Assembly: GCA_900317325.1 (NCBI GenBank) | Contig: ONGE01000013.1 | Coordinates: 28,136-92,135, forward strand | DNA: 64,000 nucleotides | Reading direction: 5' to 3' | Source: an uncultured Prevotellaceae bacterium | GTDB taxonomy: Bacteria; Bacteroidota; Bacteroidia; Bacteroidales; Muribaculaceae | Shown here: positions 19,388 to 36,491 of the stretch, piece after piece | Numbering within the stretch: position 1 is the stretch's first letter | Layout of the letters: each line of letters opens with the position of its first letter | Position numbers and translations under genes: made by a program | The notes under the pieces: model-generated | Database searches by the model: none | Told to the model about the DNA's origin: nothing | Seen by the model: the letters and a program-made list of their open reading frames with translations, nothing else

Positions 19388-20251
19388 ATGGCATCGATAA
19401 AAGGTCAAAATATCACCTTGATTGCTGAAAGCAGCACGACGCGCACCGAATGGTCGTTGATAGATGGCGGCGAGGTGCTGGCGCATGCTTTTACTTCGGG
19501 TCTGAACCCGTTTTTCATGACGCGCCGCGAAATCAGCCACAGCATCCGCTTGGAATTGCCGCCAGAGTTCTTCAAGCGTCGCTGGAGTCATGTCTATTTC
19601 TATGGAGCCGGCTGTTCTGGTCCCGAGAAGAACAAGATCATCGAGGGATCGCTGGTCGCTCAGTTCAAGACTCCGGTAACGGTGATGAGCGACTTGCTGG
19701 GTGCAGCGCGCGGTCTGCTGGTGCGTGAGCCGGGTCTGGCGTGTATCCTGGGCACGGGCAGTAACTCGTGCTTCTACGACGGCAACGAGATTGTGAAGAA
19801 TGTGCCCGCCCTGGGTTTCATCTTGGGTGACGAGGGCAGTGGTGCCGCGCTGGGTCGCGTGTTCCTGGGCGATGCCCTCAAGGGGCTGGCGCCGCATGAA
19901 CTCACCGAGGCCTTCTTCGACAAATACAAGGTGACGCGTGCCGAGGTGCTCGACGCCGTCCTGAACAATCCTGCTGCAACGCGCAATCTGCGTGCCTACT
20001 CGTTCTTCCTGAGCGAACATCTGGACAATCCCTATGTCCACGAGACCATCGCCCGTGAGTTCAGACGCTTCTTTGAGCGCAACGTGGCCCAATACGACTA
20101 CAAGAGCTACCCCGTGAGCTTCGTGGGCTCGATCGCCACCACCTACAGCGAGATTCTGCTCGAGGTGGCCAATGCCTTAGGTGCTACAGTGAAGAAAATC
20201 GTCCTCAGCTCGATGCCCGGCCTCGTCGCCTACCACAGCGACCAAGAGTGA
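19388..20251 (+). CDS. BadF-type sugar kinase paralogue with altered phosphate-binding motif
   Basis: 287 residues of the BadF/BadG/BcrA/BcrD ATPase family (ASKHA fold), which includes GlcNAc and MurNAc kinases. It is clearly a paralogue of the 34734 protein: EPGLACILGTGSNSC..DG, LGDEGSGAALG and the FVGSIA region are shared. The first phosphate-binding motif differs. The paralogue reads ADCGSTK, with the Asp expected to be needed for phosphotransfer, whereas this one reads AESSTTR (E14 in place of Asp, no Gly). It may be a weak kinase, or a sensor or regulator of amino-sugar level. It has its own promoter and opens the run of genes leading to the amidase-fold protein at 23216. Confidence 0.8.
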   Translation: MASIKGQNITLIAESSTTRTEWSLIDGGEVLAHAFTSGLNPFFMTRREISHSIRLELPPEFFKRRWSHVYFYGAGCSGPEKNKIIEGSLVAQFKTPVTVMSDLLGAARGLLVREPGLACILGTGSNSCFYDGNEIVKNVPALGFILGDEGSGAALGRVFLGDALKGLAPHELTEAFFDKYKVTRAEVLDAVLNNPAATRNLRAYSFFLSEHLDNPYVHETIAREFRRFFERNVAQYDYKSYPVSFVGSIATTYSEILLEVANALGATVKKIVLSSMPGLVAYHSDQE

Positions 20252-20381: not shown

Positions 20382-23030
20382 ATGATGAAGCATAAGATAT
20401 TGCACTTGATAATCATGGCGATGGCCATTGTGGTGAATGCTAGAGCCCAGGATGTTCAAGCCATTGCTGAGCGTCTTGACCTTCAACGCTATGAATTCCC
20501 ACAGGAAAAGATTCATGTGATGACCGACCGCGGGGCTTACCTTGCCGGTGACACCCTCAGGCTCAGGGCCTGGGTGGTGGATGCGGCGACGCATCATCCG
20601 GTGTCGGCAAGCAAATTTGTATATGTAGAGTTGCTGTCGCCGACCGACTCGCTTTGTGCCCGCGTGAAAATCCATCAGGACGATGACGGCGTCTTCCAGA
20701 GCTATCTGCCGATACCCGATGATCTGCCCGAGGGCCGTTACCAGCTGACAGTCTACACCCTGTTCATGCAGAATGCCGGCATCGACTACTTCTGCCGCCA
20801 GCCGATTGAGATAACGGGACTGATGTCGTTGAAACGGCGCATCATCGCCCAGTGTGTGCGTTTTGACGACGAGGTGGACGTGAGGCTGCGCTACATGGAC
20901 TTGTCTGGTGAGCCTTGCCCGTTCGATGGCTTCTATTATATGAACCGATATGGATATATGAAATCCCAGGGCGGCGGCAACGGTGAGGCGCATTTCACCC
21001 TCAAGGGTCAGGAAGCCCGTGATGCCGTGGTGCTCGTTGAGATTGACGGCTATGCCAAGTATATCCCGCTGCCCCCAAGCCGCAAGGTAGAGGTGGGTTT
21101 CTATCCCGAGGGCGGCTATCTGGTGCCCGGTGTAGAGAATGCGGTGGCCTTCAAGATGCATGACCCGGGCAACCTCACGGATAAAGCCTCGGGCGAACTG
21201 GTGGACGAACAAGGCCTGGTCATCGCGCCGCTACGCGTGGAGCACGACGGCATGGGTGTGGTGAGGTTCACGCCGCGCGCCGATGGACGCTACACGGCAC
21301 GGTGGCGCGACAATTTTGATGTATTCACCACCTTTGACTTGCCCCAGGTTCGGTCCGATGCCACGGTAGTACAGGTGCGACGCGACGACGACGGGTTGGT
21401 GATACTGCAGGCCGCCGGTTCCCATGCCGCAGGTGCAGTGCTGGTGGTGCAGCAGCGAGGCTGTCTGGTCACGGCATCTCAGGATGCCATCTCCATGGAT
21501 GATGACGAATTCTCACCTGGTGTGGTGCAAGCATTGCTGCTGGACGAAAACGGACGCTGCCTGAGCGAACGCCTGTTCTTCGCTGGGCATGAAACGCTGT
21601 CGGCAGCCCGTGTCGAGACGGCACGCCCCGAATATGGCAACCGCGAGGCTGTCCAGGTGAGTGTGGACCTGAGTGAGCTGGCTGCTGCAGCCGATGGCGA
21701 CAACTGTGCTGTGACGGTCGTTGATGACCATGCTGCAGTGGTGGGCGAGGGTGACATCTGGTCCAATCTGCTGCTGCAGAGCGACCTGCGCGGCAGCATC
21801 CACAATCCGGGTTATTACTTTGAACAGGGCGACAGTGTGGATGCCCGTGAGCGTGGCCGTCACCTGGATATGCTCATGCTCACCCAGGGCTGGCGCCGCT
21901 ACGACATCCCTCGCGTGCTCAAGGGCCTCGTCGCCGAGCCGCAATACCCCCTTGAGGTCTCGCAGGTAGTTGCCGGGCGCGTCCTGAGCGAATTTCGCAA
22001 GAAGCCGCTTGCCAATGCCGAGGTGGGCTTGATTATCCCCAAAATGGAATATGCCAATGTGGCCACGACCGACTCGCTGGGCCGTTTCTCCATCCCGGTG
22101 CCCCTGGTGCCCGATGGCGTGGATTGCGTGGTCATCGCCATGAATGACAAGGGCAAAAAGCAGACTAATCTGGAACTGACCGAGGAACAATACCCCGACA
22201 CCTATTACCTGATTGACGCCGGTGCGTCAAACGGGGTGACGGCCGATGTGCAGGAAGAGCAGGCCTGGCGCTTGATCAACGAGGATGACTGGCGCCACAT
22301 CATGCTCGACGAACTGGTGGTGTCGGCGGCTCGTCGTCTGCGCAAACCCACGGTCGAGTCAAACCGTTATTTGACGGCCGATGACATTTCCCGATTGGGC
22401 ATCACCTCGGTCGATGGAGCTTTGCGGGCGATAGGGGTGACCAACTTTGATAAGGTCAGTATTACCATCGACGGTGAACCGCTCAGTGACCTTTATTTCA
22501 CCGATACCGAGACTTTCAAACAGGCGTTGACCTTGTCGACGGCAATAACCGATTGGAAAAATGATAAGCTCAAGCGCGTCTCGTACGCGCCATTTGCAAC
22601 GGGCTCCGACTATGATTTGTCTGATGTCTCCATTGCCGATGGGTTTATCAGCATGCAGAATGTCGACTATATCGATTTCTCTCACGGTCGTCGAGGCAAA
22701 ATCAATGTGAACTTCAGCAGGAAACCTAACTCTGGCAAAGTATGGAAGGAACCCAGCAGATATGTCAAGATTGCCCACCCGATGGGGGCGCAGCGGCCTG
22801 TGGAGTTTTACTCGCCCCGCTACGATCAGGGGGACTGCGGCATTGATCCCGGGAACGACCAGCGTCGGGTGCTCTACTGGAATCCCGATGTGAAAGTGGG
22901 CGAGGACGGCAAGGCTCGCTTCGATTTCTACAGCAGCGATGCCCGCAGCACCACCTACACCATCCTGGTCGAGGGCGTAACCGCCGACGGTGAACTCATC
23001 CGCGGTACACAGCGCGTCACTAAGCATTAG
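20382..23030 (+). CDS. Exported MG2/alpha-2-macroglobulin-like protein with plug-type domain
   Basis: 882 residues with a signal peptide (about 1-22, ending NARAQ). An N-terminal MG2-like domain (YEFPQEKIHVMTDRGAYLAGDTLRLRAWVVDA, about 37-135) is followed by further macroglobulin-like beta-sandwiches, a carboxypeptidase-regulatory-like domain (about 528-600, VAGRVLSEFRKKPLANAEV) and a TonB-receptor plug-like segment (about 640-760). A last sandwich contains GKARFDFYSSDARSTTYTILVEG. No beta-barrel is present, so it is not a full TonB-dependent receptor. Proteins of this kind are common in Bacteroidales and their function is unknown. A role at the outer membrane with the neighbouring wall enzymes is a guess from position. 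Confidence 0.7.
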   Translation: MMKHKILHLIIMAMAIVVNARAQDVQAIAERLDLQRYEFPQEKIHVMTDRGAYLAGDTLRLRAWVVDAATHHPVSASKFVYVELLSPTDSLCARVKIHQDDDGVFQSYLPIPDDLPEGRYQLTVYTLFMQNAGIDYFCRQPIEITGLMSLKRRIIAQCVRFDDEVDVRLRYMDLSGEPCPFDGFYYMNRYGYMKSQGGGNGEAHFTLKGQEARDAVVLVEIDGYAKYIPLPPSRKVEVGFYPEGGYLVPGVENAVAFKMHDPGNLTDKASGELVDEQGLVIAPLRVEHDGMGVVRFTPRADGRYTARWRDNFDVFTTFDLPQVRSDATVVQVRRDDDGLVILQAAGSHAAGAVLVVQQRGCLVTASQDAISMDDDEFSPGVVQALLLDENGRCLSERLFFAGHETLSAARVETARPEYGNREAVQVSVDLSELAAAADGDNCAVTVVDDHAAVVGEGDIWSNLLLQSDLRGSIHNPGYYFEQGDSVDARERGRHLDMLMLTQGWRRYDIPRVLKGLVAEPQYPLEVSQVVAGRVLSEFRKKPLANAEVGLIIPKMEYANVATTDSLGRFSIPVPLVPDGVDCVVIAMNDKGKKQTNLELTEEQYPDTYYLIDAGASNGVTADVQEEQAWRLINEDDWRHIMLDELVVSAARRLRKPTVESNRYLTADDISRLGITSVDGALRAIGVTNFDKVSITIDGEPLSDLYFTDTETFKQALTLSTAITDWKNDKLKRVSYAPFATGSDYDLSDVSIADGFISMQNVDYIDFSHGRRGKINVNFSRKPNSGKVWKEPSRYVKIAHPMGAQRPVEFYSPRYDQGDCGIDPGNDQRRVLYWNPDVKVGEDGKARFDFYSSDARSTTYTILVEGVTADGELIRGTQRVTKH

Positions 23031-23215: not shown

Positions 23216-26200
23216 ATGAAAAAATCGATTCAAGTATTGCTGAGCCTTGCCGCATGTGCATCAATGGCCTTGCCGATGCATGCCCAAGACCAGGCTCAGG
23301 TCCAGATGTTCACTCAGGAGCAGCTGGACGCCGTGCAGCGTGTAGTGGCCAGCAAACTGCCCGAGCACATGGGTGTGGGCGAGCTGAAGGTGCGTTCGGT
23401 GACATTCGAGAACGACACCGTCAAGGTGGACGTGAGTGAGAACTTCGGTGACGTGCCGTTCACCCAGGCCGGGGTAGAGCAGATGCGTGGCGAGATACGC
23501 CAAGCGCTGGGTGCCGAGTACGACGACAGTCCGGTGCTTGTTACCATTGTGGGCAACGACATCAACAAGTACTTCGCCGACTATGAGCCGGCCTATAAGC
23601 GCAGTCATGCCCCCTTCATCAGCGAGCTGGATGCCAACCGCCACTACAAGCACGGCCTTGACGGCAACATCGTGGCGATGTGGCCCAGCCACGGCTGGTA
23701 CTTCGAGCCCAAACTCAACCGCTGGGAGTGGCAGCGTGCCCGCCTGATGCAGACCGTCGAGGACATGTACACCCACAGTTATATATTGCCCTTCCTCATC
23801 CCCATGCTCGAGAATGCGGGTGCCTATGTGTGGAACGCGCGTGAGCGCGACACCCACAACTACGGAGCCGTGGTCGATAACGACGGGGAAATGGCCTTCA
23901 CGAACTACAGCGAGCACAACGGCAAGCAGAAGTGGCAGGACGGCACCGAGCCGGGCTTCGGTTACCTGCATGCCGAGTACAAGGACTTTGAGAATCCCTT
24001 CACCGAGGGCACTTACCGCATGGTCAAGGCCGAAAAAGACAAGAAGCATGTCTCGACCGCCACGTGGGACGCCGAGTTGCCCTACGGTGGTGACTATGCC
24101 GTCTATATCTCCTATAAATCACTGCCCAACAGTGCCCGCGACGTGACCTATACGGTCAACAGCCTGAGCGGCACACGCCAGTTCCGCGTGGATCAGACCA
24201 TGGCAGGCGGTGTGTGGGTATATCTGGGCACCTTCCCGCTGGCCCAGGGAATGAATAAGGCCGTTGTCGAGGTGTCTAATCTGAGCGAGGACAAGAACGC
24301 CGTAATCACCGCCGATGCCATCAGTGTGGGTGGCGGTAAGGGCAATATCGTGCGCCGCGTGGCATTGCCCACCGAGGAAAACTTGGCTATCGTCGCCGAG
24401 CAGAAGGCCAATGGTGAGAACAATGAGGCTTGTCTGGGCAAGCCTGGCCTGCAGTATAACTATATCGGCAGCGGTAACCATCCCTGGTACCACCTGGGCT
24501 CGCGCTACTATCTGCAGTGGGCCGGCTTCCCCGACAGCGTGTATTCCACCTCACACGGCATCAACGACTATACCGACGACTACCGCAGTCGCGGCGAGTG
24601 GGTCAACTATCTGGCCGGTGGCAGCGACGTGCTGCCCGACCGTGGAGGCCTGCGGGTGCCGGTGGATTTGTCATTCTGCCTTCACACCGATGCCGGTGCT
24701 ACGCTCGACGATGAGATCGTGGGCACCCTGCTGATCTACTGCACCCGCGCCAACGGAAAGCAGTTCGGCAAATATGCCAACGGCACTCCGCGAGAACTCT
24801 CGCGCCGCTTCGCCAATCTGCTCTCGACCGAAATCGTCAAGGACATCCGTGCCAAGTGGGAGCCCAACTGGACGCGTCGCGGCATGTGGGACAAGAGTTA
24901 TTACGAGGCCCGTGTGCCCGAGGTGCCCGCCGTGCTCATGGAGCTGCTGTCGCACCAGAACTTCGCCGACATGAAATACGGTCTCGACCCGATGTTCCGC
25001 TTCGACGTGAGCCGAGCCATCTACAAGGGCATGTTGAAATTTATCGCCCAGCGCGACCACCGCAGTTACGTCATCCAGCCGTTGCCTGTCAACACCTTTG
25101 CCATCACCAAGATTGCCAAGGGACAATACCTGCTCACGTGGAATCCCACGCATGACGACCTGAGTGAGGGCGCCGATGCCACGAGCTATATCGTGTGTGA
25201 GCGCATAGGGCTGGATGGTGGCTTCAAGGAAATTGCCACCGTCAAAGGACCGCAGTACAGCGTGCGCATCAGCGACAACAAGATGCACTCTTATCGCATC
25301 ATCGCCATGAACGATGGTGGCCGCAGTTTCCCCAGCGAGACGTTGAGCCTGGGCGAGACGGCTGGCAGTAAGGGCGACGTGCTGGTAGTCAATGGCTTCA
25401 CCCGCGTGAGCGGCCCTGACTGGTTTGAGGACAGCACGCTGGCGGGCTTTAACGATAACAAGGACCACGGTGTGCCCTATATCCAGCAGATCAACTACCT
25501 GGGCTCGCAATATGAGTTCCGCCGCAGCCTCGAGTGGAAGGATGACGACGCACCTGGTTTCGGCGCCAGCCGCAGCGACTATGAGACCATGAATATCGCG
25601 GGTAACTCCTTTGATTACCCTGCCGTGCATGGCGAGGCATTGATGAATGCCGGCTACTCCTTCGTGTCCTGCAGCCAGCAGGCGCTGGAGAACAACTATA
25701 ACACCGAGGGCTACTATCTGATGGACCTCATCCTGGGCAAGCAGAAGGAAATCAAGACCGGAAGCGGACTGAAGCCCACACGCTTTAAAATCTACACCCA
25801 GGGCCTGATGAACGCCCTGCGTGCCTTTACCGGAAAGGGTGGCAGCGTGATGATGACAGGCTCCTTTGTGGGCAGTGACCTGTGGGACAATGCTGCAGGC
25901 AACAACGACGACGCGGGCAAGGCCTTTGTCAAGCAGGTGCTCGGCTTTGAGGGCTTGAACGGGCGCGCATCGCTCGATGGCACCATCTACACTGTCGATA
26001 GCCCCGACCGTGGCCTGTCCAGTGACGGAGCATGGAGTTTTGTCAATAAGTTGAACGACTTGCAGTATGCCGTCGAGTCGCCCGATGCCATCCGTGCCAG
26101 CGACAGCCGCGGTTTCACCTGGATGCGCTATGGCGAGAACGGCCTGCCCGCCGCCATCGCTAGTGAACGTGGCGGTTACCGCACCGTGGTCATGGGATTC

Positions 26201-26275
26201 CCGCTCGAGGCAGTGACCACCACTCAGGAGCGCACTAGCCTGATGTCCCGCATCATGGAGTACCTGCGCCAATAA
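23216..26275 (+). CDS. Exported amidase-fold protein with golvesin/xanthan-lyase-type domain
   Basis: 1019 residues. Signal peptide (about 1-23), an N-terminal domain of about 120 residues, then a divergent Amidase_3-like fold split by an insertion. A plausible metal and catalytic set is H159 (WPSHGWYF), E171 (RWEWQRAR), H490 (FCLHTDAG) and E576 (VLMELLSHQNF). The insertion (about 255-395) resembles the golvesin C-terminal domain (TATWDAELPYGGDYAVYISY, GGVWVYLGTFPLAQG). A fibronectin-like domain (about 620-715) and a C-terminal flavodoxin/glutamine-amidotransferase-like region follow. Such proteins are often labelled xanthan lyase; the sequence instead supports a wall amidase or related hydrolase. 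Its position inside the recycling locus agrees. Confidence 0.75.
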   Translation: MKKSIQVLLSLAACASMALPMHAQDQAQVQMFTQEQLDAVQRVVASKLPEHMGVGELKVRSVTFENDTVKVDVSENFGDVPFTQAGVEQMRGEIRQALGAEYDDSPVLVTIVGNDINKYFADYEPAYKRSHAPFISELDANRHYKHGLDGNIVAMWPSHGWYFEPKLNRWEWQRARLMQTVEDMYTHSYILPFLIPMLENAGAYVWNARERDTHNYGAVVDNDGEMAFTNYSEHNGKQKWQDGTEPGFGYLHAEYKDFENPFTEGTYRMVKAEKDKKHVSTATWDAELPYGGDYAVYISYKSLPNSARDVTYTVNSLSGTRQFRVDQTMAGGVWVYLGTFPLAQGMNKAVVEVSNLSEDKNAVITADAISVGGGKGNIVRRVALPTEENLAIVAEQKANGENNEACLGKPGLQYNYIGSGNHPWYHLGSRYYLQWAGFPDSVYSTSHGINDYTDDYRSRGEWVNYLAGGSDVLPDRGGLRVPVDLSFCLHTDAGATLDDEIVGTLLIYCTRANGKQFGKYANGTPRELSRRFANLLSTEIVKDIRAKWEPNWTRRGMWDKSYYEARVPEVPAVLMELLSHQNFADMKYGLDPMFRFDVSRAIYKGMLKFIAQRDHRSYVIQPLPVNTFAITKIAKGQYLLTWNPTHDDLSEGADATSYIVCERIGLDGGFKEIATVKGPQYSVRISDNKMHSYRIIAMNDGGRSFPSETLSLGETAGSKGDVLVVNGFTRVSGPDWFEDSTLAGFNDNKDHGVPYIQQINYLGSQYEFRRSLEWKDDDAPGFGASRSDYETMNIAGNSFDYPAVHGEALMNAGYSFVSCSQQALENNYNTEGYYLMDLILGKQKEIKTGSGLKPTRFKIYTQGLMNALRAFTGKGGSVMMTGSFVGSDLWDNAAGNNDDAGKAFVKQVLGFEGLNGRASLDGTIYTVDSPDRGLSSDGAWSFVNKLNDLQYAVESPDAIRASDSRGFTWMRYGENGLPAAIASERGGYRTVVMGFPLEAVTTTQERTSLMSRIMEYLRQ

Positions 26276-26355: not shown

Positions 26356-27840
26356 ATGGGAAGAATTAATTGCTTTATTCCGTTTGTGAGCCCCGAACAG
26401 GCTGCACAGACCATCGAGCACCTCAAGGAGCAGGAGCTGGTGAACAAGATCTATCTGCTTGCCACTGTGGACAAACCCAAACCTGTCGAGGGTTGCGAAA
26501 TGGTGCCCGTCAACGTGCTCTTCTCGAGCGCCACAATGCGCGAGATCGCTCAGCGCGCCGATGCCGACTATGTGCTGCTCTACACCAAGTATGACACCCT
26601 GAAGATGGGTCCGTTCTCGCTGGAGCGCTTCACCAAGTTGGGCGACGACACCCAGTCGGGCATGCTCTATGCCGACCACTACAATGTGACCGAGAAAGGT
26701 GCCGACAAAGCCCCGGTCATTGACTACCAGATGGGTAGCCTCAGGGACGACTTCGACTTCGGCTCGGTGATGTTCTTCTGCAGCAAGTGCTTCAAGAAGG
26801 CCGTTGAGGCGATGAAGGCCAACTATGAGTTTGCCGGCCTGTATGACCTGCGCCTCAAGTTGTCACAGTTTGCCGCCATCACCCACATCAACGAGTTCCT
26901 GTACAGCGATGTGGAACTGGATACCCGCAAGAGCGGCGAGAAAATCTTCGACTACGTTGACCCGCGTAATCGCGGCCGCCAGATCGAGATGGAGAAGGCC
27001 TGCACCGAGCACCTCAAGGAAATCGGGGGCTATCTGTCGCCCACGCGCGAGGAGAACGGCGAGAGTGTGCCCAACTTCCGTCACATTGAGTTCGATAAAG
27101 GCGACTTCGAGGTCGAGGCCACGGTGATGATTCCCGTGCGCAACCGCATTCGCACCATTCGCGATGCCATCGACTCGGTGCTCAAGCAGGAGTGCAACTT
27201 CAAGTTCAACCTGATGGTGGTGGACAATTTCTCCACCGACGGCACCCGCGAGGCTATCGCCGAATACAAAGATCCGCGCCTGATCCACATCATTGCCGAT
27301 TTCTATGACATGGGTATCGGCGGTTACTGGAACCTGGCTGCCCACCGCAAGAACGTCGGCAAGTTCATCGTGCAGCTCGACAGCGACGACATGTACAAGG
27401 ACGAGCACACCCTGCAGACGATGGTGGACGCTTTCTACGAGCAGAATGTGGCTATGGTGGTAGGTACCTATCAGATGACCGACATCCACCTCAATCCCAT
27501 CCCCCCCGGTATCATCGACCACAGGGAGTGGACTCCCAGCAACGGCCGCAACAATGCCCTGCGCATCAACGGTCTGGGCGCTCCGCGTGCCTTCTACACG
27601 CCCGTGCTGCGTGAGGTGAAGTTGCCCAACACGAGTTATGGCGAGGACTATGCCTTAGGTCTGAACATCTCGCGCTTCTACCAGATTGGTCGCGTCTATG
27701 ACCCCGTGTACCTGTGCCGCCGTTGGGATGACAACAGCGATGCGTCGCTCGATGTCGAGAAGATGAACCGCAACAACCTGTACAAGGACCGCATCCGCAC
27801 CTGGGAACTCCAGGCCCGCATCGCCCTGAATAAGAAGTGA
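26356..27840 (+). CDS. Cytoplasmic glycosyltransferase with two GT-A-like domains
   Basis: 494 residues, no signal peptide or membrane helix. The C-terminal half (about 255-430) is a family-2 glycosyltransferase domain: ATVMIPVRNRIRTIRDAIDSVL, LMVVDNFSTDGT and the metal/nucleotide-binding VQLDSDDMYKDE. The N-terminal half (about 1-230) looks like a second, degenerate GT-A domain (INCFIPFVSPEQAAQTIEHL, DADYVLLYTKYDTL, SGMLYADHYN). The sugar donor and acceptor cannot be told. It begins 80 bases after the amidase-fold gene, and the DUF4922 gene starts 50 bases after its stop. Its place among muropeptide genes suggests that it acts on a wall-derived sugar or lipid carrier, but this is inference. 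Confidence 0.78.
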   Translation: MGRINCFIPFVSPEQAAQTIEHLKEQELVNKIYLLATVDKPKPVEGCEMVPVNVLFSSATMREIAQRADADYVLLYTKYDTLKMGPFSLERFTKLGDDTQSGMLYADHYNVTEKGADKAPVIDYQMGSLRDDFDFGSVMFFCSKCFKKAVEAMKANYEFAGLYDLRLKLSQFAAITHINEFLYSDVELDTRKSGEKIFDYVDPRNRGRQIEMEKACTEHLKEIGGYLSPTREENGESVPNFRHIEFDKGDFEVEATVMIPVRNRIRTIRDAIDSVLKQECNFKFNLMVVDNFSTDGTREAIAEYKDPRLIHIIADFYDMGIGGYWNLAAHRKNVGKFIVQLDSDDMYKDEHTLQTMVDAFYEQNVAMVVGTYQMTDIHLNPIPPGIIDHREWTPSNGRNNALRINGLGAPRAFYTPVLREVKLPNTSYGEDYALGLNISRFYQIGRVYDPVYLCRRWDDNSDASLDVEKMNRNNLYKDRIRTWELQARIALNKK

Positions 27841-27890
27841 TTATCTAGATACTCTAGAGATTCTGGATTATCTGGAACTAAATAATAGCA

Positions 27891-28850
27891 ATGGACTACA
27901 GCAGGGTAATTGACCGACTCATTGCCAGGCAACTGCGTGACTGGGACTTGGCCGGCGCCAACTATGCGGCGCTGGCGGGTACCGTGACGCGCACGCTGCA
28001 ACTGGGTGAGGCATCCGTTACATTGCAATTCAATCCCGAGCGGCGGCGCTCATCGACTGCCGCCCTCGACAAGCATTCGCTGGCGCGTCGCCAGTGCTTC
28101 CTGTGCCGGGAGAACCAACCCGCCAAGCAGAAGGCCGTGCTGTGGGGTGACCATTACAAGATTCAGGTCAATCCTTATCCCATCTTCAAGCGCCACCTCA
28201 CGATTGCCGACCTGCACCATGAGCCGCAGCGCATTGCTGACAGGGTAGGGGATATGTTGTCACTGGCCAAGACCCTGCCCGAATTTGTGGTCTTCTACAA
28301 CGGGCCGCAGTGCGGTGCTTCGGCCCCCGACCACGCCCACTTCCAGGCGGGCGCCAAGGGCGAGATGCCGTTGCCCGACGAGGTGGCCCATGCCACGACC
28401 CATCTGATGGCCGACGGTGATGAGGGTTTCATCGGTTACGTGGATTCGTTGGGACGCAGCCTTTTCACTATCGAGACTACGACCCAACGCACAGCCGTGC
28501 GCTATGCCCTGCGTCTGCTTGACCAACTCCCCGTCCCCGAGGGCGCCGACGAGCCGATGATCAATGCCTTGTGCTGGTGGAACAGGACCAATCGTCTGTG
28601 GAACTTGGTCATTTTTCCGCGACGCAAGCACCGTCCTGCCTGCTACGGCGAGGGAGAGGGCCGTTTGTTGCTCAGCCCCGGAGCTGTCGATATGGGTGGC
28701 TTGTGGGCCGTTCCCGAGCGCCAGGACTTTGATGCCCTCACGCCCGAGATCATCCGTGCCCTCTACAACGAGTTGTGCATGAGCCGTCAGGAACTGCTTC
28801 CTGTCATCAACAACTATAACCAGCATTGGGAAGACCTGCAACCGTTTTAG
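27891..28850 (+). CDS. DUF4922 protein, HIT/GalT-like nucleotidyl phosphorylase
   Basis: 319 residues, no export signal. It carries a C69-FL-C72 pair like the zinc site of galactose-1-phosphate uridylyltransferases and an H148-A-H150-F-Q152 motif matching the HxHxQ signature of GalT, Ap4A phosphorylase and GDP-L-galactose phosphorylase, with H150 the likely nucleophile. The segment YKIQVNPYPIFKRHLTIADLHHEPQ fits the substrate-binding strand of that superfamily. The reaction would be transfer or phosphorolysis of a nucleotide-linked substrate. The substrate is unknown; the neighbours (glycosyltransferase before, SpoIID-like after, 73-base gap) make a sugar nucleotide likely. Confidence 0.72.
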   Translation: MDYSRVIDRLIARQLRDWDLAGANYAALAGTVTRTLQLGEASVTLQFNPERRRSSTAALDKHSLARRQCFLCRENQPAKQKAVLWGDHYKIQVNPYPIFKRHLTIADLHHEPQRIADRVGDMLSLAKTLPEFVVFYNGPQCGASAPDHAHFQAGAKGEMPLPDEVAHATTHLMADGDEGFIGYVDSLGRSLFTIETTTQRTAVRYALRLLDQLPVPEGADEPMINALCWWNRTNRLWNLVIFPRRKHRPACYGEGEGRLLLSPGAVDMGGLWAVPERQDFDALTPEIIRALYNELCMSRQELLPVINNYNQHWEDLQPF

Positions 28851-28923
28851 TCCAATTACGCATTTTTCGCAATTGGAAGTTTAGAGCTTAGGGTTTAGAA
28901 TTTTTAAGAAAGAAATTATCAAT

Positions 28924-30258
28924 ATGGACGAGAAACAAATACCGCAAGTGAGGGTGGGCATCATGAACGAGCCTGAGATTGACTTTGTGCTCAATGGTGA
29001 CTACCGCGTGAATGGCATTACCTGCAGCGGCGCTCACTCGGCTCGCTGTGTCGATGGACAGGTGGAGTGGGGTGGCAACCGCTACAGTGAGCTGTTCTTT
29101 GAGCCTGTTGATGCCGAGAAAGCCTCTTTCACGTTGAAGGCAGTGACCATCGGCGTGAGTTTCCACTGGAAACGTCAGGAGGACCAGACCTTTAAGGGCG
29201 CCTTGCACCTTATCGTCGAGGACGGCAAACTGACACCCGTCAATGTGTTGAGCGTCGAGGATTACCTGCTGAGCGTCATCTCCAGCGAGATGAGCGCCCA
29301 TGCTTCGCTCGAACTCTTGAAGGCCCATGCCGTCATCTCGCGCAGTTGGCTGTTGGCACAGATCCATACCGAGGAGACCGTCAAGCCGGTCGATCGCGAC
29401 CCTGACGCTCCCGGTGAGATGATGGATACCCCCGAGGAGCAGGTCAAGTGGTGGGACCGCGACGACCACGTGAACTTTGACGTGTGTGCCGACGACCACT
29501 GCCAGCGCTACCAGGGCATCACCCGCGCCACGACCCAGAAAGTGGAGCAGGCCATCCATGCCACTTGGGGCCAGGTGCTGATGCACGGCGGTGCGCTGTG
29601 CGACGCCCGTTTCTCCAAATCCTGCGGCGGTGTGATGGAGGAGTTCGAAAACTGCTGGGAACCGCATCATCACGATTACCTGGAGGCGCGCCGTGACGGC
29701 GAGAACGAGGAGGATTTCCCCGATCTGACCCGTGAGGACAACGCTGCCGAGTGGATCCTGTCGGCTCCCAGTGCCTTCTGCAACACCACCGACCCCGAGA
29801 TCCTGTCCCAAGTCCTCAACGACTATGACCAGGAGACCAAGGACTTCTACCGCTGGAAGGTGGAATACACCCAAGACGAGCTTGCCGCGCTCATCAAGGA
29901 GCGCACGGGCATCGACTACGGCCGCATCCGCGACCTGCAGCCCGTGGCGCGCGGCACCAGCGGCCGTCTGTACCGCATGCGCATCGTCGGCGAGAAGTGT
30001 GAGCGCATCATCGGCAAGGAACTCACTATCCGCTATGCCCTGTCACCCTCGTGCTTGTACAGTTCGGCCTTTGTCGTCGAGAAGCACGACAAGGACGAGG
30101 AAGGCTATCCCGCCAAGTTCGTCCTGCGTGGCGCAGGGTGGGGCCATGGCGTTGGCCTGTGCCAGATCGGTGCTGCTGTCATGGGCGCCAAGGGTTACGA
30201 CTACAAGCAGATCCTGCTGCACTACTTCGTGGGCGCCAGCATCGAGAAACGCTACTAA
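28924..30258 (+). CDS. SpoIID/LytB-type lytic transglycosylase without export signal
   Basis: 444 residues. The SpoIID core is clear: VEDYLLSVISSEMSAHASLELLKAHAVISRSWLL contains the conserved catalytic Glu (E122), FSKSCGGVMEEFENCWE resembles the SGG/Cys region, and GAGWGHGVGLCQIGA (H408 region) is the family's C-terminal signature. The SpoIID family cuts glycan strands stripped of peptides. SpoIID itself is membrane-anchored and acts outside the cytoplasm, yet this protein starts MDEKQIPQVRVGIM with no signal peptide, lipobox or helix. It would therefore stay in the cytoplasm unless exported by an unknown route. ampG begins 48 bases later, which suggests work on imported glycan fragments. Confidence 0.82.
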   Translation: MDEKQIPQVRVGIMNEPEIDFVLNGDYRVNGITCSGAHSARCVDGQVEWGGNRYSELFFEPVDAEKASFTLKAVTIGVSFHWKRQEDQTFKGALHLIVEDGKLTPVNVLSVEDYLLSVISSEMSAHASLELLKAHAVISRSWLLAQIHTEETVKPVDRDPDAPGEMMDTPEEQVKWWDRDDHVNFDVCADDHCQRYQGITRATTQKVEQAIHATWGQVLMHGGALCDARFSKSCGGVMEEFENCWEPHHHDYLEARRDGENEEDFPDLTREDNAAEWILSAPSAFCNTTDPEILSQVLNDYDQETKDFYRWKVEYTQDELAALIKERTGIDYGRIRDLQPVARGTSGRLYRMRIVGEKCERIIGKELTIRYALSPSCLYSSAFVVEKHDKDEEGYPAKFVLRGAGWGHGVGLCQIGAAVMGAKGYDYKQILLHYFVGASIEKRY

Positions 30259-30306: not shown

Positions 30307-31650
30307 ATGAAAGAAAGTCCGGTTCAAGAGGCGAAGAAACGCTCGCCATGGTTGTGGATTCCGACGCTCTATTTTGCCGAGGGTATCCCTTACTTCGTCG
30401 TGAACAACATTTCGGTGCTGATGCTTGCCAAGATGGGTGTTCCTAACGGACAGATGGCGCTCTTCACCAGTTTGCTCTACCTGCCGTGGACCATCAAGCC
30501 CTTCTGGAGCCCGTTTGTTGACATTATCCGCACCAAGCGGTGGTGGACCATCTCGATGCAGGTGCTCATGAGCATCGCGTTTATCCTGCTCACGCTGACG
30601 ATGCCCAAACCCGACGCGGCAACCATCGCATCGGGGCAGACGCCCATCAGCATGTTCACCATTACGCTCATCTTGTTCGTGATCACAGCCTTTGCCAGCG
30701 CAACACATGACATCGCTGCCGACGGCTTCTACATGCTGGCATTGCGCCAGAACGAGCAGGCCGCCTTTGTGGGCATCCGCAGCACGTTCTACCGTCTATC
30801 GTCAATCTTCGGCCAGGGTGTTCTGGTCGCCATCGCTGGTGCCATCGAGCTGAAGAATGGCAATATTCCCATGTCATGGACAATCACGATGGCTGTTGCC
30901 GCAGTGCTGTTCAGTGTCGTCACACTGTATCACACTTTTGCCATCCCACGGGTGAAAAGCGATGCCTCAACCCTCAAGGATGAGAAGCCCACGGTGGGTG
31001 CAATCTTCAAGGAGTTTGGCCGCACTTTTCTGACATATTTCACCAAGCCTTATGTCTGGCTGGCCATTGTCTTCATGCTGCTCTATCGCTTGCCCGAGGC
31101 TTTCCTGATCAAGATGTGTACCCCCTTCCTGGTCGCCAGCAAGGATGTCGGCGGACTGGGGCTCTCAACGGCCGAGGTGGGCATCGTCTATGGCACTATC
31201 GGTGTGCTGGCGCTGACCATCGGTGGTATCCTGGGTGGCTTGTTTGCCGCTAAGGTGGGCTTGAAGAAGTCCTTGTGGTGGATGGCGGCCTGCATGACGT
31301 TGCCTTGCGCCACGTTCGTCTACCTGGCTGTCGGACAACCGACTAACCTTGTTGCCATCTCGGTTGCCATTGCTATCGAGCAATTCGGTTACGGTTTCGG
31401 CTTCACGGCTTACATGTTGTACATGATGTACTTCAGCGAGGGTGAGTTCAAGACGTCGCATTATGCCATCTGCACCGCCTTCATGGCCTTGAGTATGATG
31501 ATTCCGGGCATGTTTGCTGGCTATATCCAGGAAGCCATTGGCTACGCCAACTTCTTCTGGATGGTTATGGTCTGCTGCATCGCCACCCTGGTTGTGACCT
31601 ACATGGTCGATCGCCGCATCGACCCCAACTACGGCAAAAAGAACGACTAA
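30307..31650 (+). CDS. ampG: AmpG-like muropeptide permease (MFS)
   Basis: 447-residue inner-membrane transporter of the major facilitator superfamily, with about 12 helices. The start PWLWIPTLYFAEGIPYFVVNNISVLMLAKMGVPN and the segment SATHDIAADGFYMLAL are typical of AmpG-type permeases of Bacteroidales. Known AmpG proteins import anhydromuropeptides from the periplasm. It sits between the SpoIID-like gene and namZ, consistent with peptidoglycan salvage. Exact substrate (disaccharide, anhydro form, with or without peptide) cannot be read from the sequence. Confidence 0.85.
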   Translation: MKESPVQEAKKRSPWLWIPTLYFAEGIPYFVVNNISVLMLAKMGVPNGQMALFTSLLYLPWTIKPFWSPFVDIIRTKRWWTISMQVLMSIAFILLTLTMPKPDAATIASGQTPISMFTITLILFVITAFASATHDIAADGFYMLALRQNEQAAFVGIRSTFYRLSSIFGQGVLVAIAGAIELKNGNIPMSWTITMAVAAVLFSVVTLYHTFAIPRVKSDASTLKDEKPTVGAIFKEFGRTFLTYFTKPYVWLAIVFMLLYRLPEAFLIKMCTPFLVASKDVGGLGLSTAEVGIVYGTIGVLALTIGGILGGLFAAKVGLKKSLWWMAACMTLPCATFVYLAVGQPTNLVAISVAIAIEQFGYGFGFTAYMLYMMYFSEGEFKTSHYAICTAFMALSMMIPGMFAGYIQEAIGYANFFWMVMVCCIATLVVTYMVDRRIDPNYGKKND

Positions 31651-31696: not shown

Positions 31697-32098
31697 ATGG
31701 AAAGGTTCTTATATGAAAAAGAGTCATATGCAATCAGGGGATGCTTGATGAGCGTTTTCAATGAACTGGGTTCGGGTTTTCTTGAGAAAGTATATCAAGA
31801 AGCCCTTGAAAGAGAGTTTATTGAAAACGAAATTCCCTATGAGCGAGAAGCTCCACTCAGAATCATGTATAAAGGTCTTCCACTTCGGCAGGAATATTTT
31901 GCGGATTTCATCTGCTATGACAAAATTATCGTAGAATTAAAGGCCGTTACTGAATTAACAGAAGTGCATTCAGCACAAGTTTTTAATTATCTGAAGGCTA
32001 CGGGTTTTGATTTAGCTATTCTCGTGAATTTTGGAGAGAAGCAATTAAAGATTGAACGTCTTTTCAATTTCATGAAGAAAAGACAGATTCAACAATGA
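31697..32098 (+). CDS. GxxExxY protein (PD-(D/E)XK nuclease-like)
   Basis: 133 residues, small soluble protein. The name-giving motif is present as G27-FL-E30-KV-Y33. D70 (YFADFICYD) with E80-L-K82 (IIVELKAV) fits the D...ExK active site of the PD-(D/E)XK nuclease fold. The biological role of the family is not established. The gene is AT-rich compared with ampG and namZ, is bracketed by inverted repeats, and breaks an otherwise logical wall-recycling gene order. It therefore looks like an inserted unit rather than a member of the pathway. Confidence 0.82.
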   Translation: MERFLYEKESYAIRGCLMSVFNELGSGFLEKVYQEALEREFIENEIPYEREAPLRIMYKGLPLRQEYFADFICYDKIIVELKAVTELTEVHSAQVFNYLKATGFDLAILVNFGEKQLKIERLFNFMKKRQIQQ

Positions 32099-32150: not shown

Positions 32151-33497
32151 ATGAAGAAGATATTGTTTATAGTAGCGTGTGTGATAGTGGCGGTGACGGC
32201 AGGTGCTGTTGTCAAGCCGGGTGTTGAAGTGCTGCGTGACGGCGGTTTCGCCCAACTGCAGGGCAAGCGCGTGGGACTGGTGACCAATCCCAGCGGCATC
32301 GACAACAACCTCAAGAGCACCGTCGACATCCTCAACGAGGCGCCCGGCGTGAAGCTCGTGGCGCTGTTCGGTCCTGAGCACGGCGTGCGCGGCAATGCCC
32401 ATGCGGGAGACGCCGTGGGCGATGCTGTGGATCCGCTGACGGGCATCAAGATGTATTCGCTGTTCGGCAAGACACATGAGCCGACGGCCGAGATGCTCAA
32501 GGACATTGATGTCCTGGTCTATGACATCCAGGACGTGGGTTGCCGCAGTTACACCTTCTATGCCACGATGGGCGTGTGCATGGAGGCATGTGCCAAGTAC
32601 GACACCGAGTTCATGGTACTTGACCGTCCCAATCCGCTGGGAGGCAACAAGGTTGAGGGTAACCTCGTCGAGGACGGCTACTTCTCCTTTGTGAGCAAGT
32701 ATTCCATCCCCTATATCTACGGTCTCACACCCGGCGAACTGGCCAAGTTCCTCAACGGGGAGGGCATCATCGCCGAGCGTTCCAAAACAGGCCATGGCTG
32801 CAAACTCACCGTCATCCCCATGGAAGGCTGGAACCGTGACATGAAGTTCCGCGACACGGGTATGCCTTGGGTAGCCCCCTCGCCTCAGATTCCCACGCCC
32901 GAGAGTGCCTTCTTCTACCCCGTATCGGGTATTCTGGGCGAGTTGTACATCTTCAACACCGGCATCGGCTACACGCTCCCGTTCCAGACCTTTGCTGCAT
33001 CATGGATCAATGCCGACTCGCTGGCGATGCGCATGAATGCGCTCAACCTGCCGGGCATGAAATTCCGTCCCATCAACTACAAACCGTTCTTCGCCCTGAG
33101 CGTGGCAGTGGACAAGTCGCTGCAGGAAGTGCACGGCGTGCAGACCTACATTACCGACCTTGATGCTGCCGACCTATGCCTGACGCAGTTCTATTTCCTT
33201 CAGGTCATCCACGAGATGTATCCTGATGTGGAACTGTTTGAACAGAACCCCAAGCGCTATGCCATGTTTGATAAGGTGTGCGGCAGCAAGGAAATCCGCG
33301 AGCGCTTCATCAAGCGCTACAAGGTAGCCGATATCGCCGACTATTGGAACAAGGATGCCGCCGACTTCGTCAAGCGCTGCCACAAGTATTACATCTACAA
33401 GCCCGCTTTGAAGGATAAGATGCGCATCAATACACTTCCCGCAAAAAAGAAAATGGGACAAATGAAAGGTTCTGTCGTCTCAAAAGATAAAGATTGA
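32151..33497 (+). CDS. namZ: Exo-beta-N-acetylmuramidase NamZ (DUF1343, GH171)
   Basis: 448 residues with a signal peptide (about 1-19). The DUF1343 family is recognised by GLVTNPSGID, LFGPEHGVRG, VYDIQDVGCRSYTFY, VLDRPNPLGG and IPYIYGLTPGELAKF, which run in the family order. NamZ enzymes release MurNAc from the non-reducing end of peptidoglycan fragments. That fits the three genes directly downstream, which would import, phosphorylate and cleave MurNAc. The stop is 5 bases before the next start. The C-terminus is basic (LPAKKKMGQMKG...), a little longer than needed. Confidence 0.88.
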   Translation: MKKILFIVACVIVAVTAGAVVKPGVEVLRDGGFAQLQGKRVGLVTNPSGIDNNLKSTVDILNEAPGVKLVALFGPEHGVRGNAHAGDAVGDAVDPLTGIKMYSLFGKTHEPTAEMLKDIDVLVYDIQDVGCRSYTFYATMGVCMEACAKYDTEFMVLDRPNPLGGNKVEGNLVEDGYFSFVSKYSIPYIYGLTPGELAKFLNGEGIIAERSKTGHGCKLTVIPMEGWNRDMKFRDTGMPWVAPSPQIPTPESAFFYPVSGILGELYIFNTGIGYTLPFQTFAASWINADSLAMRMNALNLPGMKFRPINYKPFFALSVAVDKSLQEVHGVQTYITDLDAADLCLTQFYFLQVIHEMYPDVELFEQNPKRYAMFDKVCGSKEIRERFIKRYKVADIADYWNKDAADFVKRCHKYYIYKPALKDKMRINTLPAKKKMGQMKGSVVSKDKD

Positions 33498-33502
33498 GAA
33501 TT

Positions 33503-34663
33503 ATGGGTAAAGAGAATAAACGATTACTGTCGCTCGACATCCTGCGAGGTATCACCATCGCGGGAATGCTGCTGGTGAATAATCCGGGCACGTGGAGTTA
33601 CATCTATAAGCCTCTGGAGCATGCCGACTGGATTGGCTTGTCGCCGACCGACCTGGTGTTCCCGTTCTTTGTCTTCTGCATGGGAGTGTCGATGGCTTTC
33701 TCGCTGAAGAAGTTCAATTACAAGATGTCGGGCCCGCTGATGTGGAAGATCCTGCGTCGTGCAGTCATTCTGTTCCTCATCGGTTGGGTGGTGCAGTGGT
33801 TCGGGCACTTGGTGCGTGGCCTGTGCAAGGGTGACCCCTTCAGCGAGGCGGTGAACAACCTGGAAACGTTGCGTTACCTGGGTGTGTTCCAGCGCTTGGC
33901 GCTGACCTATTTATTCGGGTCGCTGTGTGTTGTGCTGTTCAAGCGCAAGTTCATCCCGTGGCTGGTGGGCATCATCCTGGTGGTCTATGCCCTGATATTG
34001 GGCTTCGGCCACGGCTATGACTTCTCGCTCGAGAACATCATCGCCCAAATCGACAACAGCGTGCTGGGCACCAACCACATGTATCACGAGTGGGCCTATG
34101 GCGAGCAGCTCTCGTTCGACCCCGAGGGCATCTTGAGCACCTTGCCGTGCATTGCCCACGTGCTCATCGGCTATCTGGTGGGTCGCATGATCCTCAGTGT
34201 TCACAACAACAGCGAACGCGTGACCACGATGCTGCTGTGGGGCGTGATGCTGGTGCTGGGCGGCTGGTTGCTGCAATACGGCATCCCCTGCGGCAAGAAG
34301 ATGTGGTCATCGACGTTTGTGATGATCACCTGCGGCATGGCAATGTGCATCCAGGCGTTGCTAATCCACTTTGTTGATATCAAGGGACATAAGGGCGCTT
34401 GGACTCGTTTCTTCGAGTCGTTCGGTGTGAACCCGCTGGCGCTGTACGTTATCGGCACTGTGCTGGCCATCTTGTTCGGTGCCATCCCTGTGGGTCACGA
34501 TGCCGATGGCGGCAATATCTCCATCCACAGTGCAGTTTACAACTTCTTCACGACCTTCTGCAACGAGTACACGGCCTCGGCACTGTATGCCATCTGCTTT
34601 GTGCTGCTCAACTGGGTTATCGGCCACGTGCTTTACAGGAAGAAGATTTATATTAAGATATAG
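33503..34663 (+). CDS. DUF5009 multi-pass membrane protein, probable MurNAc transporter (MurT-like) or acetyltransferase
   Basis: 386 residues with about 10-11 membrane helices. The start KENKRLLSLDILRGITIAGMLLVNNPG and the phrase SPTDLVFPFFVFCMGVSMAFSL mark the HGSNAT/NagX family (DUF5009). Relatives are annotated as transmembrane glucosamine N-acetyltransferases. The gene order membrane protein - kinase - MurQ equals the murT-murK-murQ arrangement described for MurNAc use in Tannerella forsythia, so MurNAc uptake is the favoured role here; whether MurT is of this family I could not check. I chose the ATG at 33503 over the TTG at 33494, which overlaps the namZ stop. Confidence 0.72.
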   Translation: MGKENKRLLSLDILRGITIAGMLLVNNPGTWSYIYKPLEHADWIGLSPTDLVFPFFVFCMGVSMAFSLKKFNYKMSGPLMWKILRRAVILFLIGWVVQWFGHLVRGLCKGDPFSEAVNNLETLRYLGVFQRLALTYLFGSLCVVLFKRKFIPWLVGIILVVYALILGFGHGYDFSLENIIAQIDNSVLGTNHMYHEWAYGEQLSFDPEGILSTLPCIAHVLIGYLVGRMILSVHNNSERVTTMLLWGVMLVLGGWLLQYGIPCGKKMWSSTFVMITCGMAMCIQALLIHFVDIKGHKGAWTRFFESFGVNPLALYVIGTVLAILFGAIPVGHDADGGNISIHSAVYNFFTTFCNEYTASALYAICFVLLNWVIGHVLYRKKIYIKI

Positions 34664-34733: not shown

Positions 34734-35585
34734 ATGATGATTCTTATTGCTGACTGCGGCTCCACCAAGATCAACTGGACGCTGCTTAACGGAAAAGAGA
34801 AGGTGGCGCAGATCTTCACCACTGGCATGAATGCCCTGCTGCTCACCGAGGAGGAAATGAAGGAGCAGATCAAGCATGAGCTGATGCCCCACTTGACCAA
34901 CTACAAGGTTGACGAGATCCACTACTATGGCGCTGGCATCATCTCGGACGAGATCAAGCAGCAGGTGGTGAACGCCCTGCGTGCCAACTTGCCCAGTGCG
35001 GGCAAGGTGGAGGTGGCTAGCGACTTGCTGGCTGCCGCGCGTGCCGTGTGCGGTCGTGAGCCCGGTATCGCCTGTATCATGGGCACAGGCAGCAACTCGT
35101 GCTACTACGACGGCGAGAAGGTGGTGATGAACGTGTCGCCGCTGGGCTACATCCTGGGTGACGAGGGCAGTGGTGCCGTGCTGGGCAAACTGCTCGTGGG
35201 CGATGTGCTCAAGAAACAGCTGCCCGAGTACCTGTGTGAGAAGTTCATGAAGGAGTATAACCTGGACTACACGACCATTATCACGTCGGTGTATCGCAAG
35301 CCTGCCGCCAACCGCTTCCTGGCTCAGTTCGCTCCCTTCCTGGAACACAACATCGACGAGCCGGCCATCCACAACATTGTGCTGAAGTCGTTCACCGACT
35401 TCTTTACCCGCAATGTGGCCAGTTACCCCGGTTACAAGGAATTGCCGTGCAACTTCGTGGGGTCGATCGCGTTCTTCGAGAAGAAGGTGCTTCAGGAGGC
35501 TGCCGACGCCCTGGGCATCACCATCGGCACCATCATCAAGGACCCGATGGAGGGCTTGGTGAAGTACCACTCGACCGAGGCGTGA
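34734..35585 (+). CDS. murK: N-acetylmuramic acid (or GlcNAc) kinase, BadF type
   Basis: 283-residue cytoplasmic ASKHA kinase. The phosphate-1 motif ILIADCGSTKINW with D7 is intact, and CIMGTGSNSCYYDG and LGDEGSGAVLGK supply the nucleotide and sugar sites. Placement between the DUF5009 membrane protein and murQ makes MurNAc the likely substrate, giving MurNAc-6-phosphate for the etherase. GlcNAc kinase activity is the alternative, since the family covers both. It is a paralogue of the 19388 protein, whose first motif is altered. Confidence 0.82.
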   Translation: MMILIADCGSTKINWTLLNGKEKVAQIFTTGMNALLLTEEEMKEQIKHELMPHLTNYKVDEIHYYGAGIISDEIKQQVVNALRANLPSAGKVEVASDLLAAARAVCGREPGIACIMGTGSNSCYYDGEKVVMNVSPLGYILGDEGSGAVLGKLLVGDVLKKQLPEYLCEKFMKEYNLDYTTIITSVYRKPAANRFLAQFAPFLEHNIDEPAIHNIVLKSFTDFFTRNVASYPGYKELPCNFVGSIAFFEKKVLQEAADALGITIGTIIKDPMEGLVKYHSTEA

Positions 35586-35675
35586 GCGGGACGCTTGGCC
35601 CATCCGAGGCGTTGCCTCAAAAAAATATCATGCCGATAGGCATGGCTGATGTTGAATATAAAAACAGAATTGATT

Positions 35676-36491
35676 ATGGCTTTTGTGAAAATCAGCGAAC
35701 AAGAGTCGCTATATGATAACCTGGAGAAGAAATCGGTGCATGAACTGCTTACCGAGATGAACCAGGAGGACCATAAGGTGGCCGATGCGGTGCAAAAGGC
35801 GATTCCGCAAATCGAGAAGCTTGTCAAGGGCATTGTCGAGCGTATGAAAAAGGGCGGCCGCATCTTCTACATGGGTGCGGGCACCAGCGGGCGCCTGGGC
35901 GTGCTTGATGCCAGTGAGATACCGCCCACCTTCGGCATGTCGCCGGGGTGGATCATCGGAATCATCGCCGGTGGCGACACGGCCCTGCGCAATGCTGTCG
36001 AGAATGCCGAGGACGATACCACCCAGGGTTGGAAAGACTTGCAGGAGTACAAGGTGACACCGCTCGACACGGTCATCGGCATCGCGGCCTCGGGGACAAC
36101 GCCCTATGTCATCGGCGCCCTGCGCGACGCACGTGCCAATGGTTGCCTGACCGCCGCCATCACCAGCAATCCTGACGCTCCGGTGAGCGAGGCGGCCGAG
36201 ATTCCCATCGAGATGATTGTGGGTCCGGAGTATGTCACCGGCAGCTCACGCATGAAGAGTGGAACGGGTCAGAAACTCATCTGTAACATGATCTCGACTA
36301 GCGTGATGATTCAGATGGGCCGCGTCAAGGGTAACAAGATGGTGAACATGCAGCTCACCAACCAGAAGCTTGTGGACCGTGGCACCCGCTGGCTTGTCGA
36401 GGAACTGAAACTGCCCTACGACGAGGCAAAGCGCCTGTTGCTGCTTCACGGCTCGGTCAAGAGAGCTATCGATGCTTATCGCGGCGAGTAA
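35676..36491 (+). CDS. murQ: N-acetylmuramic acid 6-phosphate etherase
   Basis: 271-residue cytoplasmic lyase that splits MurNAc-6-phosphate into GlcNAc-6-phosphate and D-lactate. The SIS-domain signature GRIFYMGAGTSGRLGVLDASE and the MurQ motif GPEYVTGSSRMKSGTGQK are both present. I start at the ATG at 35676 (MAFVKISEQ), which matches family N-termini; an in-frame ATG at 35649 would add nine residues. The protein is a little shorter than the 298-residue E. coli enzyme, as its C-terminus ends soon after the KRLLLLHGSVKRAIDAY helix. It directly follows the kinase. Confidence 0.93.
   Translation: MAFVKISEQESLYDNLEKKSVHELLTEMNQEDHKVADAVQKAIPQIEKLVKGIVERMKKGGRIFYMGAGTSGRLGVLDASEIPPTFGMSPGWIIGIIAGGDTALRNAVENAEDDTTQGWKDLQEYKVTPLDTVIGIAASGTTPYVIGALRDARANGCLTAAITSNPDAPVSEAAEIPIEMIVGPEYVTGSSRMKSGTGQKLICNMISTSVMIQMGRVKGNKMVNMQLTNQKLVDRGTRWLVEELKLPYDEAKRLLLLHGSVKRAIDAYRGE

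Follow-up and report, generated by a model that had tools for sequence, protein, structure and literature searches.

A linked trio of glycosyltransferase, DUF4922 and signal-less SpoIID genes accompanies AmpG in Bacteroidales and may take part in peptidoglycan recycling

The DNA analyzed here, called the window, is a 64,000-nucleotide stretch (positions 28,136 to 92,135, forward strand) of contig ONGE01000013.1 from an uncultured Prevotellaceae bacterium (assembly GCA_900317325.1). It contains three consecutive genes, hereafter the trio, which encode a tandem GT-A glycosyltransferase (GT), a DUF4922 protein and a long-form SpoIID protein, and a homologue of the muropeptide permease AmpG follows directly (Table 1). 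In the original prediction, made from the sequence, the trio was described as lacking export signals and as a possible cytoplasmic pathway for imported glycan; its coordinates, the gaps of 50 and 73 bases between the genes, the motifs and the position of ampG all proved correct on re-examination.

Homologues were analyzed in 149 Bacteroidales genomes and in a separate class-level sample of 198 genomes. Gene maps, which looked for homologues of 14 window proteins, were also made for the best 80 of 571 relatives (the named loci), which overlap in part with the 149 genomes (for example G073 and L111). DUF4922 was above cut-off in 36/149 Bacteroidales genomes, the GT profile exceeded 500 bits in the same 36 (with one more distant match, G208, 217.7 bits), and long-form SpoIID occurred in the same 36 and in G292. 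In the class-level sample, DUF4922 was present in 6/198 genomes, each of which belongs to the window's taxonomic order and has SpoIID. Within the fetched stretch of the 80 named loci, GT was present in 75, SpoIID in 68 and AmpG in 70; all 12 loci without a local SpoIID have one elsewhere in the genome, as do four of the five without a local GT, the fifth (L098, at a contig end) having none. All three genes lie within 5 kb of one another in 22/36 genomes and at least one pair in 32/36, so the linkage that the original prediction had assumed holds in related genomes. In six genomes (G170, G321, L152, L156, L157, L166) GT, DUF4922 and SpoIID form one open reading frame (ORF) of ~1000 to 1310 amino acids (aa), that of G321 ending at the contig end; GT-DUF4922 fusions were found in G334, G330, G032 and G139, and DUF4922-SpoIID fusions in G205, G222, G306 and L162. 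The trio is a near-obligate set and forms one unit. Trio members were also seen in metagenome-assembled genomes labeled Ignavibacteriae, Bacteroidetes and Clostridium (L158, L165, L159, L149), reflecting a wider spread, transfer or mislabeled bins.

The window SpoIID exceeds the curated cut-offs of PF08486 (82.5 bits, cut-off 23) and TIGR02669 (163.9 bits, cut-off 83.3) and falls below that of the stage II sporulation protein D equivalog TIGR02870 (106.4 vs 234.75 bits). In 50 sequences the catalytic E122 and G407, H408 and G409 are invariant (50/50) and V410 is kept in 47/50, consistent with the earlier observation that the catalytic Glu and GWGHGVG are intact. The profile of the trio SpoIID matches the SpoIID lytic transglycosylase 4rwr at 1.6e-25, and the catalytic Glu, the Cys/His motif and GHGVG are shared with 4rwr, 5i1t and 5txu; a lytic transglycosylase activity, forming 1,6-anhydroMurNAc, is putative. 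Unlike these proteins, it is without a signal or membrane anchor, and it co-occurs and fuses with nucleotide-handling folds. The long form is defined by a span of 327–414 nucleotides (nt), whereas short-form spans do not exceed 276 nt. That it is plain variation was rejected, since 36 of the 37 long-form genomes carry the trio and one, G292 (93% complete), does not. Five trio genomes have a short-form match in addition, including G226 (512 aa frame).

No N-terminal export signal or anchor was found in the window SpoIID. Of 107 trio SpoIID ORFs, 97 had the first domain strand located by pattern, and in these no leader reached a hydropathy of 2.0 over 11 residues; none was seen in the other 10, which were judged by eye. 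By hydropathy and eye, all of 13 short-form Bacteroidales SpoIIDs, picked from 54 short-form genomes, have a signal-like segment ahead of the same strand (12 at ≥2.0, the last at 1.73). The isoelectric point (pI), calculated on sequences trimmed to the domain, averaged 5.24 for trio SpoIIDs (4.79–5.93, n = 50) versus 8.09 for the exported ones (5.17–9.55, n = 13), of which 9/13 are above 8 and 4/13 below 7; domain acidity helps, yet fails to separate the two groups. Because the 107 ORFs are leaderless and the protein can share one chain with two nucleotide-handling folds, the trio SpoIID looks cytoplasmic. No trio SpoIID examined appears to be exported, in keeping with the original prediction.

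The window GT belongs to the GT2 family (PF00535, 67 bits, cut-off 23.3), and its acidic active-site residues D344, D345, E430 and D431 are invariant in 71/71 sequences. The best match of its C-terminal domain among solved structures is chondroitin polymerase. The K4 enzyme (2z86/2z87) likewise has two tandem GT-A domains, but these are arranged differently, the activity of the trio's first GT-A-like domain is unassigned, and no capsule genes are among the mapped window homologues. A tandem double GT lies upstream of DUF4922 in L093, L094 and L102, and also in L042 and L043; in G032, a second GT adjoins SpoIID on a different contig from the GT-DUF4922 fusion. The DUF4922 protein has the fold of the diadenosine tetraphosphate (Ap4A) phosphorylase/GalT superfamily, with the HxHxQ motif (H148, H150, Q152) invariant in 79/79 relatives. 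The Ap4A phosphorylase model PF19327 matches 64 of these 79 at E 0.01 (best 5.4e-9), the window protein scoring below the curated cut-off (20.3 vs 23.1 bits). Identity to the Ap4A phosphorylase Apa2 (4i5t) and to ADP-glucose phosphorylase (2h39) is ~15%, and the alignment with Apa2 shows no equivalent of the CxxC (C69/C72), which had been noted earlier together with HxHxQ.

AmpG-family matches (E 1e-10) were found in 36/36 trio genomes versus 14/113 others, although the TIGR00901 cut-off was passed by 0/149 genomes (window homologue, 178.1 vs 350 bits). In at least 30/36 genomes AmpG is no more than 5 kb away from one of the trio genes, a lower bound, as one AmpG place was used per genome. The anhydro-N-acetylmuramic acid (anhMurNAc) kinase AnmK showed the reverse pattern, being matched in 4/36 trio genomes versus 94/113 others, with no match in the window's own genome. 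Fisher tests on the whole sample, which ignore descent, gave 2e-23 for AmpG and 4e-15 for AnmK. An rpoB tree was built from 137/149 genomes (6 had no match; 6 were excluded, 5 as fragmentary and 1 for an internal stop; 3 partial sequences were kept), on which the trio state changes 12 times by parsimony. Pagel tests, run with our own implementation on this single gene tree, gave p 8e-9 for trio and AmpG and p 0.006 for trio and AnmK, and were not significant for AmpG versus AnmK (p 0.17); single events can inflate significance in such tests. Outside one clade of 32 tips, AmpG is present in 9/9 trio genomes versus 11/96 others and AnmK in 4/9 versus 85/96. The link between the trio and AmpG is strong, and the trio tends to exclude AnmK, few independent events lying behind that exclusion. 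Of the 98 Bacteroidales genomes with AnmK, 83 have no AmpG match through which anhydro sugars might be taken up. With co-occurrence, fusions, AmpG in every trio genome and a leaderless SpoIID, the trio fits the predicted cytoplasmic unit tied to imported glycan.

Absence of the cytoplasmic glucosaminidase NagZ was tried as a mark of the trio and rejected, as the NagZ model NF003740 was over cut-off in 0/20 selected genomes (12 with the trio, 8 without); among control genomes, 3/14 passed it. GH3 proteins were located at 17 places in 16 genomes, each with a signal-like N-terminus. The NagZ-like GH3 proteins (L167–L183) are mostly ~1000 aa and are not confined to trio genomes; one of 371 aa (L167) is also encoded in the window's genome. 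With E. coli-type recycling (AmpG, NagZ, AmpD, AnmK, MurQ) the window shares an AmpG homologue and MurQ; its genome differs in the lack of an AnmK match and in NagZ-like GH3 proteins whose N-termini are signal-like and whose scores do not reach the NagZ cut-off.

The same gene order is found in Tannerella forsythia ATCC 43037 (locus L143): ‘xanthan lyase’/amidase, GT, DUF4922, SpoIID (‘lytB’), AmpG, NamZ (ybbC), MurT, MurK and MurQ. Tanf_08345 to Tanf_08385 form one transcript under GppX (PMC5388701), and the trio is annotated there as gtf, gtf and lytB (PMC5388701, PMC7670621). The operon itself is therefore already described, which corrects the original prediction of an undescribed system; no paper on the function of the trio was found in the one library searched, and the accessible portions of PMC5388701, PMC7670621 and PMC5790795 assign it none, so that part of the claim stands. 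Relative to those portions, the behavior of the trio as a set, its fusions, the exclusion of AnmK and the signal-less SpoIID come from the present analysis. T. forsythia AmpG restored muropeptide uptake in E. coli and imports N-acetylglucosaminyl-N-acetylmuramic acid (GlcNAc-MurNAc) and GlcNAc-anhMurNAc, peptide-free disaccharides being its major substrates (PMC7670621). MurK phosphorylated MurNAc, and GlcNAc marginally, in assays with anhMurNAc among the sugars tested (PMC5790795). No AnmK ortholog is predicted in T. forsythia, and its strategy for anhMurNAc was left by the authors to be explored (PMC7670621).

Table 1. Genes of the window and a recurrent neighbor from a related locus
Feature	Coordinates	Strand	Remarks
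Second amino-sugar kinase	19388..20251	+	upstream of cluster, like K1058 of T. forsythia
Golvesin_C + weak Amidase_3 protein (‘xanthan lyase’ in T. forsythia)	23216..26275	+	signal-like N-terminus
Tandem GT-A protein, GT2 type, 494 aa	26356..27840	+	N-terminal GT-A-like domain ~1-240; C-terminal domain DSDD 342-345, GED 429-431, RRW 455-457
DUF4922 protein, 319 aa	27891..28850	+	Ap4A phosphorylase-like fold; C69/C72, H148, H150, Q152
SpoIID, long-form, signal-less, 444 aa	28924..30258	+	Glu122, H182/C188/DHCQ motif, GWGHGVG
AmpG-family transporter of the major facilitator superfamily, muropeptide permease homologue	30307..31650	+	
NamZ exo-beta-N-acetylmuramidase homologue	32151..33497	+	signal-like N-terminus
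NagX/MurT-like membrane protein	33494..34663	+	operon position of T. forsythia MurT
Amino-sugar kinase	34734..35585	+	position of T. forsythia MurK
MurQ, MurNAc-6-phosphate etherase	35649..36491	+	TIGR00274 308.5 bits, cut-off 302
FAD/Fe-S 2-hydroxyacid dehydrogenase, example	L111:14886-17750		

The window differs from the T. forsythia operon in an inserted PDDEXK_3 (GxxExxY-type) gene between ampG and namZ (31697-32098). Its NagX/MurT-like protein is below the NagX cut-off (NF046061, 120.6 vs 480 bits). The upstream kinase is separated from the amidase by an MG2-domain protein (20382-23030, 882 aa), which the close relatives L087 and L088 also have. For other neighbors, clustering covered the 80 named loci and Pfam names were given to five representatives, which leaves room for an overlooked recurrent export gene. 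One family of unassigned ORFs recurred in 37/80 loci, in 30 of them directly between NamZ and MurT. It is a flavin adenine dinucleotide (FAD)/iron-sulfur (Fe-S) 2-hydroxyacid dehydrogenase that passes no NCBIfam equivalog cut-off; among solved structures, LctD, glycolate oxidase and D-lactate dehydrogenase come closest. Since MurQ releases D-lactate (PMC5790795), the protein would fit a breakdown pathway as a candidate D-lactate dehydrogenase. Upstream of the trio, a metallophosphatase/beta-propeller protein (L111:6524-8377) occurs in 18/80 loci and a sodium:solute symporter (L111:1959-3419) in 16/80.

On balance we favor the reading that the trio is one cytoplasmic module which processes AmpG-imported, peptide-free GlcNAc-MurNAc and GlcNAc-anhMurNAc, so that MurNAc reaches MurK and MurQ without AnmK. 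That these disaccharides are the substrate and MurNAc one product is inferred from the company the genes keep (amidase, AmpG, MurK, MurQ, D-lactate enzyme) together with the published AmpG substrates. The Golvesin_C/Amidase_3 protein is proposed as the source of the peptide-free glycan, and sporulation SpoIID acts on peptide-stripped glycan, a role that fits imported peptide-free disaccharides as substrate. As the likeliest step, SpoIID would act on the muramyl unit, opening or making the 1,6-anhydro ring, with lytic-transglycosylase chemistry run as hydration: the anhydro disaccharide would sit on the product side of the enzyme, and water added there would yield GlcNAc-MurNAc, making AnmK dispensable. 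Next in likelihood, the GT2 domain might exchange the GlcNAc unit with uridine diphosphate (UDP), converting GlcNAc-MurNAc and UDP to UDP-GlcNAc and MurNAc. Third, DUF4922 might be a nucleoside diphosphate-sugar phosphorylase, turning UDP-GlcNAc and phosphate into GlcNAc-1-phosphate and UDP; the net reaction would be phosphorolysis of the disaccharide to GlcNAc-1-phosphate and MurNAc. The complete scheme, a three-site phosphorolysis machine in which SpoIID and GT2 both run backwards, DUF4922 phosphorolyzes UDP-GlcNAc, NagZ and AnmK are replaced and the bond energy is kept as GlcNAc-1-phosphate, is offered tentatively and is itself improbable.

Several points weigh against the favored reading. 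A backward GT reaction is uphill unless pulled. Four genomes have both AnmK and the trio and 19/149 have neither; the 32-tip clade holds 27 of the 36 trio genomes and zero AnmK, so that a single event may account for much of the anticorrelation, and the absence of NagZ is not specific to the trio. The D-lactate-dehydrogenase-like gene is missing from the window and from T. forsythia L143. In the Prevotella loci L152, L156, L157 and L166 the fused trio and AmpG occur without NamZ, MurK or MurQ homologues in the fetched stretch, so the trio product may feed another route there. T. forsythia also grew less densely on anhydro fragments (optical density ~0.8) than on reducing ones (~1.3; PMC7670621).

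Instead of degrading imported muramyl disaccharides, the trio might build on them, the GT adding sugars from UDP-sugars, DUF4922 supplying or trimming the nucleotide sugar and SpoIID editing the product to a cytoplasmic glycan or signal molecule. GTs normally go forward, and a C-terminal domain with DSDD, GED and RRW whose best solved match is chondroitin polymerase suits such a role, but the neighbors found to recur in the mapped loci (AmpG, NamZ, MurT/NagX, kinase, MurQ and the D-lactate-dehydrogenase-like gene) are a breakdown set, and we consider building unlikely. Less likely again is that SpoIID works in the forward direction only, cutting longer imported peptide-free chains to GlcNAc-anhMurNAc, the anhydro sugar then being used by an unrecognized enzyme while the GlcNAc end is left to GT and DUF4922. 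A SpoIID homologue in Chlamydia reportedly cleaves glycan strands (PMC6635528), the catalytic Glu is invariant, and the genomes with neither trio nor AnmK would agree with an enzyme of this kind; extra anhMurNAc without AnmK would, however, be a dead end. The AmpG substrates found in T. forsythia are moreover disaccharides (PMC7670621), which have no internal MurNAc-GlcNAc bond for SpoIID to cut. A service in surface glycosylation (S-layer or O-glycan), with a merely positional link to AmpG, would agree with earlier work, cited in PMC5388701, that labeled the T. forsythia operon glycosylation related. It is very doubtful, as the AmpG association persists once the tree is taken into account, and the four genomes in which no two trio genes lie within 5 kb have AmpG as well. 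Export without a classical signal, with SpoIID working in the periplasm, is hardly credible: known SpoIIDs are extracytoplasmic, but against this stand the six genomes in which SpoIID is fused to two nucleotide-handling folds, the leaderless ORFs and, less cleanly given the four exported domains below pI 7, the acidic pI.

The trio could fill a missing step in Bacteroidales peptidoglycan recycling. As a set of genes that accompanies AmpG and tends to take the place of AnmK, it offers testable candidates for the anhMurNAc question in T. forsythia. If the favored reading is true, this would be, to our knowledge, the first SpoIID working in the cytoplasm and the first function assigned to a DUF4922 protein from bacteria. 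The amount of anhydro-muropeptide that gut Bacteroidales retain or release may in turn bear on host sensing.

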